Positions 34,739-39,870 of a DNA stretch of 64,000 nucleotides are shown piece after piece (the stretch's first letter is position 1; every line of letters starts with the position of its first letter). Source of the stretch: Halovenus carboxidivorans (GTDB taxonomy: Archaea > Halobacteriota > Halobacteria > Halobacteriales > Haloarculaceae); contig NZ_WUUT01000008.1 of NCBI RefSeq assembly GCF_009831575.1, positions 1-64,000 on the forward strand, in the 5' to 3' direction. The position numbers and the translations under genes are program-made. Below the pieces are notes generated by a model that ran no database searches, was not told where the DNA came from, and saw nothing but the letters and a program-made list of their open reading frames with translations.

Positions 34739-35737
34739 ATGTCACGGCGCCCGACCCACGGACACCCAGAGGAAGCCGTCGACGCCCTGCCGACCATGGG
34801 TGATTCCTGCGAACTCGCCCAGTTCGACCGACCCCGGGGATCACCGACGACGTTGGCCGTGATCTCCGACCCGCACCTCAGCGGGACGGCCCGCGGAACG
34901 AGCAAGATGTATCACCGGAGCAAACAGCGGTTGCAGACTGCCTTCGACGACGCCGCGTCCCGCGACGTGGACCTGACCGTCGTCGCCGGCGACCTGACCA
35001 GAGACGGCGAACGCTCCGAGTACGAACTCGCGACGGGGCTGTTTCGGTGCGGTCCGGACCCGACCGTCGCCGTCCCCGGAAATCACGACGTGGCCTACGA
35101 CGGGGACCGCGGACCCGTACCGGACGGCAACGCGTTCGCGGCGTGGCGCGGCCGCGGTGCGTTCCCGCGGGTGCACTCGACCGGAGCCGTCGAACTGCTC
35201 GCACTGGACAGCACCAAGACGGACGGGACGACGAAAGTCGGCGGAGCGCTCGACACGGAGACGCGCGGCTGGCTCACGTCGCTGTCGAAGCCGTCCGGAC
35301 CGCGGGTCGCCGTCTGTCACCATCCGGTCGGGCGGATTCCCGACCCTCTCGGGCGTGCACTGCCGAGCCGCTCGTATCAGTTAGCGAACTCCCGGGTGGT
35401 TGCCGACGAACTCGGTTCGGCCGGCGTCGACCTGCTGCTCTCGGGGCACGTCCACTGGCCGTACGCGACGAAGTACCGGGGACTCAACGTCGTCGGTGCG
35501 CCGAGCGTGTCTTCGTTCCCGCCGTCGTACCTCCTCGTCGACATCGGTCCGGACGGAACCACGGTTTCGATGGTCCCGGTCGCAGGAGAGTCGGGACTGA
35601 TCGAGGCCTACGAGTTCGCCCTCGAAGACGAGTGTCGGGGCAAGGCGATCCGAGACGCCGTTTCGTCGGGATATTTCGACGCCTTCCCGACCCGCCGCCC
35701 CGAAGTGACACCGGATTCCGTCTCAGGCGTCCCCTGA
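34739..35737 (+). CDS. Calcineurin-type metallophosphoesterase
   Basis: 332 residues. The di-metal motifs are in order: SDPHL, GDLTRDG, GNHDV, CHHP and GHVHW. This is the layout of cyclic-nucleotide phosphodiesterase (Icc/CpdA)-like and related enzymes; the substrate is not known. No signal peptide, so it is cytoplasmic. Its last 15 bases overlap, tail to tail, the repeat-protein gene on the other strand. Confidence 0.87.
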   Translation: MSRRPTHGHPEEAVDALPTMGDSCELAQFDRPRGSPTTLAVISDPHLSGTARGTSKMYHRSKQRLQTAFDDAASRDVDLTVVAGDLTRDGERSEYELATGLFRCGPDPTVAVPGNHDVAYDGDRGPVPDGNAFAAWRGRGAFPRVHSTGAVELLALDSTKTDGTTKVGGALDTETRGWLTSLSKPSGPRVAVCHHPVGRIPDPLGRALPSRSYQLANSRVVADELGSAGVDLLLSGHVHWPYATKYRGLNVVGAPSVSSFPPSYLLVDIGPDGTTVSMVPVAGESGLIEAYEFALEDECRGKAIRDAVSSGYFDAFPTRRPEVTPDSVSGVP

Positions 35738-36361
35738 TTCGGTCCCGTCGACCGTCTTCTCGACGGTCTCCTCGACCGTTTCTTCGACAGTATCAGCGAC
35801 AGTCTCCTCGACCGTTTCCTCGACAGTCTCGGCAACGGTGTCTTCGACTTTCCCTTCGACGGTCTGTTCGACCGTTTCTTCGACAGTCTCGGCGACGGTC
35901 TCCTCGACTGTTCCTTCGACTGTCTCTTCGACAGTGTCCTCTACTGTCCCCTCGACAGTTTCGGCGACGGTCTCTTCGACCGTTCCCTCGACGGTCTGCT
36001 CGACAGTTTCGGCGACTGTCTCCTCGACTTTCCCTTCGACCGTCTCGCCGACGGTCTTCTCGACAGACTCGCTGACGCTCGATTGGACCTGTTTCTCGAC
36101 CGCCTCCCCGACGCTCTCGTTGACCGAGTCGTCGACCTGCTTTTCGACGCTGCGTTCGACGGTCTCCTCGACGGTCCGGGTCATCCACTCGGGGTCGAAC
36201 CGTCCCATCTTCCAGCCCACGTGCAGCATATAGGAGAGAATGATCCCCACGCCGAAGGCGATTCCCGTCGCCTGGCCGACGACAGCCATCATCACGAGTG
36301 CGGTGAGAAGCAAAACTCCGTATCCAACGTCGACGGCCATATCCACTCTCGACGGATCCAT
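35723..36361 (-). CDS. Membrane-anchored protein with 36 tandem TVEx tetrapeptides
   Basis: 212 residues (205 if the second ATG, 36340, is used). Two N-terminal hydrophobic segments (about 10-30 and 31-47) are followed by a basic junction and, from R62 to D205, a strictly 4-residue repeat with valine at position 3 and mostly Glu/Thr elsewhere. Repeats 1-10 are degenerate, while most of repeats 12-36 are near-identical. The repeat part is strongly acidic and devoid of aromatics. I recognise no family. A valine every four residues would make a slowly turning right-handed helical stripe, or the region may be extended; both are inference. Confidence 0.72.
   Translation of the reverse strand: MDPSRVDMAVDVGYGVLLLTALVMMAVVGQATGIAFGVGIILSYMLHVGWKMGRFDPEWMTRTVEETVERSVEKQVDDSVNESVGEAVEKQVQSSVSESVEKTVGETVEGKVEETVAETVEQTVEGTVEETVAETVEGTVEDTVEETVEGTVEETVAETVEETVEQTVEGKVEDTVAETVEETVEETVADTVEETVEETVEKTVDGTESGDA
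35747..36178 (-). repeat. Tandem 12-base coding repeat, 36 units
   Basis: 432 bases of in-frame 12-base units, each encoding one tetrapeptide. The unit nearest the N-terminus is the most diverged and the C-terminal half the most uniform, as expected if recent expansions by slippage or unequal recombination occurred there. Confidence 0.9.
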
Positions 36362-36406: not shown

Positions 36407-38218
36407 TCACAGCGCGACGAGCAACACGAGCGTCAGGACGGCCACCAGAATCGCAATCGACGTGCCGACGCCCGCGCGGATGTACAGCCGGGAGACCGCT
36501 CCGCCGTCGGCCGACAGATCCTCCCGGACGAAATCGGGCTGCAGCGTCCGCGGGAGCCGCCGGCCCACGCGGAACACGACGGTCACGGGGTTCGACCCTG
36601 CCCAGTAGCAGAGCCGGACGAACTGGACCGCGACGCGGTCGACCGCGGCGAACAGTTCGGTCGTCGCGACGATCAGCCCCCGACCGCCGTAGAAGAACAC
36701 GCGGTTGTAGACGGCGTCGATGTCGGGCACGCGGCCGACGTGATGGAGCGGTCCACGGAGGATTGCGAAGCCGACGAGTCCCGCCAGCCCCAGGCCGACG
36801 CCTTCCGCGATGTGCGGGACGGTGAAGGTGTGATACTCGTAGGCCTCCGCGGGGACCGGCAGAATCTCGAACAGCAGATCCGGCACGAGACCGAAGGCGA
36901 CACACAGCCCCGCGACCGAAACCATCGCCACGCTCTGACCGACGTTGGCGTCTTTGATATCTCCGGTGTACTCGCCCTCGATGAAGGCGAAGTAGCCGAG
37001 TTTGATAAACGAGAGGAACGTCCCGACACCACCGATCAACAGCAGGTACCACAGCGCTTCGAGTTCCTTCTTTTCGGCGGCACCGATGATCATCCCCTTC
37101 GAGACGAAGCCGTTGAAGCCGGGGAAGCCAGCAATCGACAGCGCCGCGATTCCGAACGTGCCCGCGGTGAGCGGCATCTTCCGGCCGAGGCCGCCGATAT
37201 CGTCCAGGCTCTCCTTGCCGGTGCGGTAGATGATCACACCGACGGCCATGAACAGAAGCGCCTTGTAGAGGATGTGGTTGAAGACGTGTCCGAACGCGCC
37301 GGCGGTGGCGAGTTCGTGGTAGTACTTCCCGCTGTGGCCGATAGCCGCGCCGCCGAGACCGACGCCGGCGACCATGTAACCGACCTGTGACTGGATGTGA
37401 TAGGAGAGCAGTCGGCGCATGTCCGACTGCAACAGCGCCGCGAAGGCGCCGAAGACGGCCATCGCACCGCCCATGTACGCGATCCAGAGGTGGCCGTCGG
37501 GGAACGCCCGGAACATCCCGTAGACGCCCGTCTTGGTCGTGTAGACACAGAGGAAAACGCTCGCGGCGATATGCGGCCGGGGATACGTGTCCGGAAGCCA
37601 GGCGTGCAGGCCGACGAACCCGACGTTGACGCCGATGCCGACCGCGGCCAGCGCCGCCGGGACCCCGCCGGTCAGCCCCGCGCTCGCCGTAAAGGCGACC
37701 GACCCGACCTCGACGTAGTGCCAGACGATGCCGGCGAGCAGCAGGCTTCCGCCGATACCGTGCAGGACTGCGTACCGGAAGCCGGCCCGGACCGCCGCGC
37801 CGCCGTAGTACCAGACGAGCAGCGTGCTCGTGACGGCCATCAGTTCCCAGAAGAAGATCAGCGTGAGCCAGTCGCCGGCGTAGACGGTTCCCAGTCCGGT
37901 GCCGACGTAGGACAGCGCGATTGCCGTCTGTCGGCTGTCCGCGCCGCTGGCGTAGGAGTACAGCACCGCGACGGCACCGATGAGCCCGAATATCAGCCCC
38001 ATCAGCCGCGAGAACGGGTCGACGTTGTAGAGAATCGCATCGAACGCGCCGAACAGCGTCACCTGGAGGTGTGCACCTTCGGGGACGACCCACGACAGCG
38101 CCGCGACCCCGCCGGTCGCGAGCACGCCGACCGCGTGGCCGATCCGTCGCGGGAGCACCGCGGCCAGAAGCGCCGCCGCGAGCACGATCACCACCGGCGG
38201 GACGGTATCGAGCACCAT
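36407..38218 (-). CDS. Mrp antiporter MrpD/MrpA-type proton-conducting subunit (third copy)
   Basis: 603 residues from ATG 38218. About 14 membrane helices of the antiporter/complex I ND2/4/5 family: FFWELMAVTSTLLVWYY carries the conserved glutamate, HAWLPDTYPRPH the broken-helix signature, and a lysine-bearing helix (HILYKALLFMAVG) follows. A C-terminal extension after about 470 adds extra segments. It is the last gene of the mrp operon and shares one base (TGATG) with the previous one. Confidence 0.88.
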   Translation of the reverse strand: MVLDTVPPVVIVLAAALLAAVLPRRIGHAVGVLATGGVAALSWVVPEGAHLQVTLFGAFDAILYNVDPFSRLMGLIFGLIGAVAVLYSYASGADSRQTAIALSYVGTGLGTVYAGDWLTLIFFWELMAVTSTLLVWYYGGAAVRAGFRYAVLHGIGGSLLLAGIVWHYVEVGSVAFTASAGLTGGVPAALAAVGIGVNVGFVGLHAWLPDTYPRPHIAASVFLCVYTTKTGVYGMFRAFPDGHLWIAYMGGAMAVFGAFAALLQSDMRRLLSYHIQSQVGYMVAGVGLGGAAIGHSGKYYHELATAGAFGHVFNHILYKALLFMAVGVIIYRTGKESLDDIGGLGRKMPLTAGTFGIAALSIAGFPGFNGFVSKGMIIGAAEKKELEALWYLLLIGGVGTFLSFIKLGYFAFIEGEYTGDIKDANVGQSVAMVSVAGLCVAFGLVPDLLFEILPVPAEAYEYHTFTVPHIAEGVGLGLAGLVGFAILRGPLHHVGRVPDIDAVYNRVFFYGGRGLIVATTELFAAVDRVAVQFVRLCYWAGSNPVTVVFRVGRRLPRTLQPDFVREDLSADGGAVSRLYIRAGVGTSIAILVAVLTLVLLVAL

Positions 38219-39870
38219 CAGGCGCTCACCTCCTCCGCGACGAGTTCGATCAGTTCGAGGAAGCCGACCTCGTAGGGGATCAGCCCCAGCACGACCGCAC
38301 CCGAAGCGATGAGCAGAATCGGCCCGAGCATCAGCCACGAGCCTTCCTGGCCCGTCCAGCCGACGCGCTCCCAGCCGTCGGGACCCGGACCGCCGTGATG
38401 GTGGTTATCGGCGTGGTCGCCGTCCTCGTGGCCGCCGTCGGCCGCGACGTTTTCCTCCGCCGGACCGCCGCCGAATCTACCCTCGACGAGCGGTTTCGAG
38501 TCCGCCTCGTCGTGGGACTCGAAGAAGGCGCCGTAGACGATGGGCCAGAAGTAGGCGATGTTGAGCACCCCGGAGATGAGCAGGACGACGGCGAAAATCG
38601 CCTGATCGGCCTGGACGGAGCCGATCAGGAGGAACCACTTGCTGACGAAGCCGGCAACCAGGGGGATACCCGCCATCCCCGCGGAGGCGACGGCGAAGGC
38701 GACCATCGTCAGCGGCATCCGCTTGCCGATCCCGTCCATCTCGCTGATGTAGTCGGTGTGCGTTTCGACGTGGATGAAGCCGGCACAGAAGAACAGTGTG
38801 AGTTTCATGAAGGCGTGCGCAGGGATGTGGAGCAGTCCGCCCCAGATGACGTATTTCAGCGCCTGGCTGTCCGACAGGGCCGGCCCGACGAGCGCCAGCC
38901 CGAGGACGATATAGGACAGTTGACTGACCGTCGAGTACGCCAGGCGGCGTTTCAGCCGATCCTGTCGGAGCGCGATCACGCTCGCCGCCGTCAGCGTGAA
39001 CGCGGCGACGACCGCGAGCGGCAGGCCCAGCCCGAACTGTGCGATCCGCTCCGGTCCGTACACCTCCAGGACGAGCCGTGCGATGCCGAAGACGCCGCTT
39101 TTGACGACCGCGACCGCGTGCAACAGCCCCGAAACTGGCGTCGGCGCAACCATCGCGTCGGGCAGCCAGGAGTGCAACGGCATCAGCCCGGCCTTCACGC
39201 CGAACCCCGTCGCGAGCAGGGCGAAGGCTGCCTTCGCGAGCGCGGGGTCGGCGTTCGCCAACGCGGCACCGGTCTGGCCGAAGGTCGTCGATCCGGTGAG
39301 CACGAACACCAGCGCCGTCCCGGCGAGAACGAGGACGCCCCCGCCGAAGAACGTGTAGGCGACGTACTTCCGGCCCGCCGCCCGGGCCTCCGGATCCTCG
39401 TCGTGTGCGACAAGCGGGTACGTCGCCACCGACAGCAGTTCGTAGAAGACGAAAATCGTCACCAGATTCTCCGCGAAGGCGACACCGACGGCCGTCGAGA
39501 GGCTGGCGGCGAAGGCCGCGAAAAACCGCGTCTGGGCGTGTTCGTCCAGCCCGCGCATGTACCCGGTCGCGTAGAAGGCGGTGAAGATCCACAGCAGGCT
39601 GGCGAGGGTGGCGAAGATCATCCCGAGGGCGTCGGCTCGCAACGCGAACTCGATGCCGCCGACCAGGTCGCCCATCGACCAGCGGTACTCGGTGCCGTCG
39701 AGGACGCCCGGTAGCATGCTCGCGATGATCGCGAACTTCGTGACCGCGGCCACGACCGACCACGCCTCGCGGATGTTCGGCCGTCTGTGCGAGGCGATAA
39801 TCAGCGCGATTGCGAGCGCCGAGGCCAGGACTGCGAGCAGCGGTCGCGGGTCAGCGACGACATCTGTCAT
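38218..39870 (-). CDS. Mrp antiporter MrpD/MrpA-type proton-conducting subunit (second copy)
   Basis: 550 residues, about 14 helices. The conserved glutamate is in FVFYELLSVATYPLVA and the discontinuous-helix motif is LHSWLPDAMVAPTPVSGLLHA. A cytoplasmic Asp/Gly/His-rich insert (VAADGGHEDGDHADNHHHGG) near residues 465-485 is unusual and could bind metal. It overlaps the first MrpD gene by 4 bases. Confidence 0.9.
   Translation of the reverse strand: MTDVVADPRPLLAVLASALAIALIIASHRRPNIREAWSVVAAVTKFAIIASMLPGVLDGTEYRWSMGDLVGGIEFALRADALGMIFATLASLLWIFTAFYATGYMRGLDEHAQTRFFAAFAASLSTAVGVAFAENLVTIFVFYELLSVATYPLVAHDEDPEARAAGRKYVAYTFFGGGVLVLAGTALVFVLTGSTTFGQTGAALANADPALAKAAFALLATGFGVKAGLMPLHSWLPDAMVAPTPVSGLLHAVAVVKSGVFGIARLVLEVYGPERIAQFGLGLPLAVVAAFTLTAASVIALRQDRLKRRLAYSTVSQLSYIVLGLALVGPALSDSQALKYVIWGGLLHIPAHAFMKLTLFFCAGFIHVETHTDYISEMDGIGKRMPLTMVAFAVASAGMAGIPLVAGFVSKWFLLIGSVQADQAIFAVVLLISGVLNIAYFWPIVYGAFFESHDEADSKPLVEGRFGGGPAEENVAADGGHEDGDHADNHHHGGPGPDGWERVGWTGQEGSWLMLGPILLIASGAVVLGLIPYEVGFLELIELVAEEVSA

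Follow-up and report, generated by a model that had tools for sequence, protein, structure and literature searches.

What is a protein in which two hydrophobic segments are followed by a long tract with valine at every fourth residue, and does it work with a partner? The question arises from a gene present in one copy in the genome of Halovenus carboxidivorans, within a stretch of 64,000 nucleotides (the window; contig NZ_WUUT01000008.1). A first-pass annotation, made from the sequence alone, had given the coordinates of the gene correctly; one small correction is that it lies on the minus strand. The features discussed here are the following.

35723..36361, minus strand: whole coding sequence of the Val-tetrad protein, 212 amino acids (P0001; from the list of open reading frames, ATG start, without internal stop)
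36176..36361, minus strand: predicted N-terminal membrane hairpin, residues 1 to 62 (alignment A1, hydropathy, AF2)
35744..36175, minus strand: 36 Val tetrads (xVxx), residues 63 to 206, net charge -41
35726..35743, minus strand: acidic C-terminal tail TESGDA, residues 207 to 212
36407..38338, minus strand: upstream Proton_antipo_M gene (Mrp/NuoL-type antiporter; Pfam PF00361), at a spacing of 45 bp
34739..35737, plus strand: convergent gene for a calcineurin-like phosphoesterase (list of open reading frames and Pfam)

The Proton_antipo_M and Val-tetrad genes, on the same strand and 45 bp apart, are probably cotranscribed. The 3' end of the Val-tetrad gene overlaps that of the phosphoesterase gene by 15 bp, and we do not think that this neighbor is a component of the Val-tetrad system. 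An antisense match (35733-36083, plus strand) was discarded as mechanical, produced by GTCGAC-like codon pairs read from the opposite strand.

Composition and history of the tetrad tract

The first-pass annotation had described two N-terminal hydrophobic segments followed by 144 residues with valine at every fourth position, and both parts were confirmed. Hydropathy places two adjoining segments within residues 6 to 50, and in the tract valine occupies position 2 of all 36 tetrads and none of the other 108 positions; with random placement, the chance of 36 valines falling in one phase among 144 positions is ~10^-34. Threonine is found at position 1 in 26 of the 36 tetrads, glutamate at position 3 in 24, and mainly Glu, Gly, Lys or Asp at position 4. 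The number of tetrads therefore holds, but the TVEx wording attached to them is strictly followed by only 19, the general rule being xVxx. Similarly, the composition originally given (almost only Glu, Thr, Ala, Gly, Lys or Gln) needs a small correction, as Ser and Asp are also present. Tandem Repeats Finder detected the DNA repeat only at 70 to 74% identity.

The near identity of the distal repeats had been taken to imply ongoing expansion, which finds no support in the window gene. The agreement of synonymous codons between repeats was random at every lag (|z| <= 1.3, with the random expectation taken from the codon usage of the gene itself), indicating that the distal uniformity is maintained at the protein level. 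Nor do the membrane-proximal repeats appear to be worn, as had been proposed, since the stretch SVGEAVEKQV is common to the window protein and its same-genus relative L001 and its wording is thus conserved. Among the relatives, 8 of 97 have a lag with a synonymous-codon z > 4, so recent repeat expansion does occur in the family.

Codon choice in the tract differs from that of the neighboring genes. Threonine codons are A or T ended in 11 of 26 cases versus 26 of 218 (P = 3e-4), a trend present in 63 of 87 relatives, while GTC is used for 34 of 36 valines versus 274 of 403 (P = 4e-4). The A- or T-ended threonine codons might reduce exact DNA repeats; the uniform use of GTC for valine makes it unlikely that repeat reduction is the whole story of the codon bias.

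An unnamed family of haloarchaeal proteins

The first-pass annotation had suggested profile searches across haloarchaea and a comparison of repeat number between strains. A profile built from residues 1 to 64 (alignment A1) matched 272 of 392 sampled genomes of the class Halobacteria, i.e., about two-thirds, and the window protein itself (E = 2.7e-31). Among 393 genomes sampled from the phylum, all of the matches came from one order, with none outside it. The hairpin carries the motif HxxWKMxRFDPxWMT, with 16 invariant columns across 38 relatives in the same alignment. A protein search of GTDB contigs yielded 64 loci, the majority of which are haloarchaeal and have the common hairpin; no relative was found among viral contigs, and a viral origin was discarded. 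In 118 distinct loci, which are phylogenetically related, were sampled partly by tract-based patterns and in some cases lie near contig ends, the tract ranges from 3 to 67 tetrads (median, 27.5), and valine occupies 92% of the phased positions and 0.3% of those out of phase.

Three distant relatives (L083, L084, and L086; E values of 1e-4 to 1e-8) combine a hairpin that has HVWEKM, or a variant, at its end with Val tetrads of different wording, for example STEV DEQV AGSV, so that spacing and architecture are conserved beyond sequence. They represent a sister family, distant from the main one, with the pattern FYIDLxYGxLF...HVWEKM followed by Val tetrads (G285 C20, G383 C31, and G001 C1:133259), and L083 and L084 have the same neighbor cluster upstream. 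A stretch of Val/Ile tetrads is also found at the N terminus of a subtilase-like protein of an uncultured Haliea metagenome-assembled genome, a bacterium (L061:5004-6458), where the pattern probably arose independently.

The first-pass annotation knew of no family with this architecture, and no match to the Val-tetrad protein stands after sequence searches of Pfam, NCBIfam, and the PDB. The tract matched DUF445, GvpQ, GerPC, EcsC, bL17, and others, but reversed tracts hit just as many Pfam families at comparable scores; these matches therefore reflect composition and period. DUF445 (PF04286), for instance, aligns weakly across the tract at 19.8 bits, below its cutoff of 33.8, and reversed tracts reach 17.7 to 20.6 bits. 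The middle region of CdrL (PF24252) gave short forward matches above the cutoff in some relatives (L051, 36.6 bits), but the aligned stretch is only ~30 residues long and the window tract scores 18.1 bits against a cutoff of 27; the CdrL-like protein of the window genome is the product of a different gene, starts with a ribbon-helix-helix-like segment and is devoid of Val tetrads. Searched alone against Pfam, the hairpins of 38 members pointed to no consistent family, and Foldseek against the PDB returned nothing at E < 1. In the open-license PMC literature, we found no paper that deals with the protein, with its motif, or with haloarchaeal coiled-coil repeats of four residues, and public records annotate family members as "hypothetical protein." The Val-tetrad protein hence belongs to an unnamed haloarchaeal family, so far without a name or function.

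Linkage to PiT phosphate permeases

When the neighbors of all loci were clustered, a single dominant partner emerged, the PiT phosphate permease (PF01384). This linkage is a new finding, missing from the first-pass annotation. The identity of the permease comes from the Pfam match and, on three plasmids, from the deposited annotation "inorganic phosphate transporter." Of the 118 distinct loci, 73 have a PiT gene at a distance of no more than 800 bp: directly downstream on the same strand in 43, divergent upstream in 25, and convergent downstream in 21 (the classes overlap). In 25 loci, the stop codon of the Val-tetrad gene overlaps the PiT start, mostly as TGATG or ATGA, an arrangement like that of translationally coupled gene pairs. 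A single PiT clade comprises the downstream and the divergent copies, and within it both orders occur in one 13-member subclade (support, 0.999), which indicates that the pair has been retained through rearrangement. At about five PiT genes in each genome, chance adjacency can be put roughly at 0.5% per locus; the loci being related, a formal probability of the linkage is not meaningful.

No PiT was found nearby in 44 of the 118 loci, some of which are truncated where a contig ends. The window copy is among them and is found instead 45 bp behind the Mrp antiporter-type gene. The two PiT genes of its genome are on C1, away from the Val-tetrad gene, and one of them is 65% identical to the PiT of locus L025 yet has no adjoining Val-tetrad gene. 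Every one of the 77 genomes searched from the family of the window organism has PiT, including some that lack the Val-tetrad gene; hence, PiT does not require the Val-tetrad protein.

Other arrangements were also seen. In a Halorubrum group (L003, L017, L018, L020, and L033), the gene is upstream of an amino acid permease (PF13520) in place of PiT, with a UspA-like gene beyond. In many Natrialbaceae (L007, L036, L047, L052, and others), it is flanked by two different PiT paralogs, with a UspA gene between them and an SLC13-type transporter beyond. Linkage to Mrp as a general trait was rejected, as it occurs only in the window and in L001, in different orientations.

Structure of the hairpin and the tract

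Structure prediction, also suggested in the first-pass annotation, was helical over the hairpin and most of the tract. With a 40-sequence alignment, AF2 placed helices at residues 3 to 28 and 30 to 54 (block pLDDT, 77 to 88) and, at low confidence, a helix across most of the tract (pLDDT, ~47 to 60 beyond residue 100 and ~47 to 54 beyond residue 110); for the short relative L045, it predicted the hairpin and a helix at 57 to 90, with a break at RRPR. The hairpin is bordered on both outer sides by basic residues (R5, K51, and R54; RLRGR in the distant relatives), which suggests an N-in/C-in topology with both termini in the cytoplasm.

The tract itself is probably helical, although it does not fit any coiled coil described thus far. 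Heptads have a periodicity of 3.5, hendecads 3.67, and pentadecads 3.75, and the local 3.8 of YadA is the most extreme known; the upper limit is expected near 3.9, so that 4.0 is outside the accessible range (PMC4786415). The tract shares with canonical and high-periodicity coiled coils the regular hydrophobic spacing and the acidic rod, but its period is exactly 4.0: the hydrophobic spectrum peaks there (1.84) and stays at or below 0.35 between 3.4 and 3.9, and the window tract thus falls outside the periodicity of coiled coils (~3.3 to 3.9, with limits from PMC4786415). In a straight alpha helix, a strict 4.0 period would make the valine stripe circle every 36 residues and leave no lasting hydrophobic face; the hydrophobic moment at 100 degrees is 1.63 over 18 residues and 0.22 over 36. 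The best sequence evidence for helicity comes from the 43 of 118 loci in which the tetrads continue in register into 3-4-3-4 heptads ending in RVDRRPR-EDEVEEL. In this subset, positions -13, -10, -6, -3, and +1 are hydrophobic in at least 97% of the relatives, a canonical coiled-coil 3-4-3-4 pattern. The window protein has no such heptad/RVDRRPR module. RVDRRPR-EDEVEEL is a conserved basic motif that directly follows the heptads in an otherwise very acidic protein (L007, L008, L045, L102, L141, and others).

Our preferred explanation, which we hold tentatively, is that of a haloarchaeal accessory membrane protein that works with PiT in most lineages. The two-helix hairpin, with both ends cytoplasmic, would anchor it in the membrane, and the tract would form a long acidic stalk reaching into the cytoplasm, for the most part alpha-helical and probably oligomeric. 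Among the roles listed in the first-pass annotation (spacer, cation-binding brush, or oligomerizing helical stalk), the stalk is the best supported, by the heptad register in 43 relatives and the helical predictions. A bolder version, which we consider doubtful, is that the tetrads form an undescribed rod in which helices assemble through hydrophobic contacts spaced at 4.0 residues per turn. Stabilized in saturated KCl, it would serve PiT-type transporters as a cytoplasmic stalk anchored in the membrane; such a rod might be tightly right-handed or built with regular pi-turns.

The tract could instead be a disordered polyanion brush: an acidic chain, tethered but unfolded, that would attract cations or buffer them in the vicinity of cation-coupled transporters. 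Helices form poorly from Thr, Val, and Gly; the abundance of these residues, the strong negative charge (net, -41), the AF2 confidence of ~50 in the tract, the variation in length from 3 to 67 tetrads, and the ion-coupled classes of the linked transporters would all suit a brush. However, a brush needs charge and not an exact valine phase, which is broken at only 0.3% of out-of-phase positions over the 118 loci, and does not call for continuity of register into a heptad coiled coil, so that we regard it as a rather unlikely alternative to the helical stalk.

A possible accessory role in phosphate transport

In the accessory-protein explanation, the partner in most lineages would be the PiT-type permease encoded alongside and sometimes another cation-coupled transporter, the window copy having come to sit behind an Mrp-type antiporter gene. 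Gene order points to this role, in which the protein may help to assemble, cluster, or regulate the transporter. The variety of neighbors among lineages (amino acid permease, Mrp antiporter, UspA, SecY, and others) and the persistence of the family in 44 loci without a nearby PiT could also be accounted for by a general membrane scaffold or spacer, involved in envelope spacing or membrane organization with no specific transporter partner, the linkage to PiT being inherited gene order. We find this unlikely, given that the pair stays adjacent on plasmids and, within a single supported PiT subclade, in more than one orientation, and that start and stop codons overlap with PiT in 25 loci.

An accessory gene beside the permease has precedents in bacteria, in many of which the PitR/PhoU_div regulator (PF01865) adjoins Pit. 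According to PMC13170248, the neighbor of pitA is pitR or, in certain genomes, the gene for SCO1846, a small and unrelated membrane protein. The Val-tetrad gene resembles both in directly adjoining a Pit/PiT permease, and SCO1846 is likened to it by description and gene position. A more specific version of the accessory explanation would make the protein a haloarchaeal stand-in for PitR/PhoU_div. PhoU_div has no match anywhere in the window genome or in the Haloferax volcanii control, is present in other archaeal controls, and matches only 77 of the 392 Halobacteria genomes. However, the two are not mutually exclusive, as the Val-tetrad family occurs in 61 of the 77 PhoU_div-positive genomes (a 61/16 split obtained by reading two lists by hand) versus 211 of the 315 negative ones, and replacement is thus not supported. 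PhoU_div is a PhoU helical bundle, whereas the Val-tetrad protein is a hairpin with an acidic repeat tract, and PF01865 is absent from the Pfam matches of P0001. Adjacency to pit, as would befit a PitR-like role, is seen in 73 of 118 loci but not for the window copy; no PiT was found within the ~3.6 kb examined around three PhoU_div loci (L164 to L166). A stand-in for PitR seems improbable to us. Lastly, a drifting simple repeat without function, or one that is not translated, as repetitive DNA of variable copy number might suggest, is extremely improbable, since the frame and valine phase have been kept through saturated synonymous divergence in the window gene, across 118 loci and in the distant relatives.

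About two-thirds of haloarchaeal genomes thus carry a gene that so far has had neither a name nor a function. Its tract is a natural test of the structure adopted by a strict four-residue period, outside the range considered accessible in the coiled-coil literature, and its linkage to PiT offers a direct hypothesis, namely, that the family may be a haloarchaeal transporter accessory protein.
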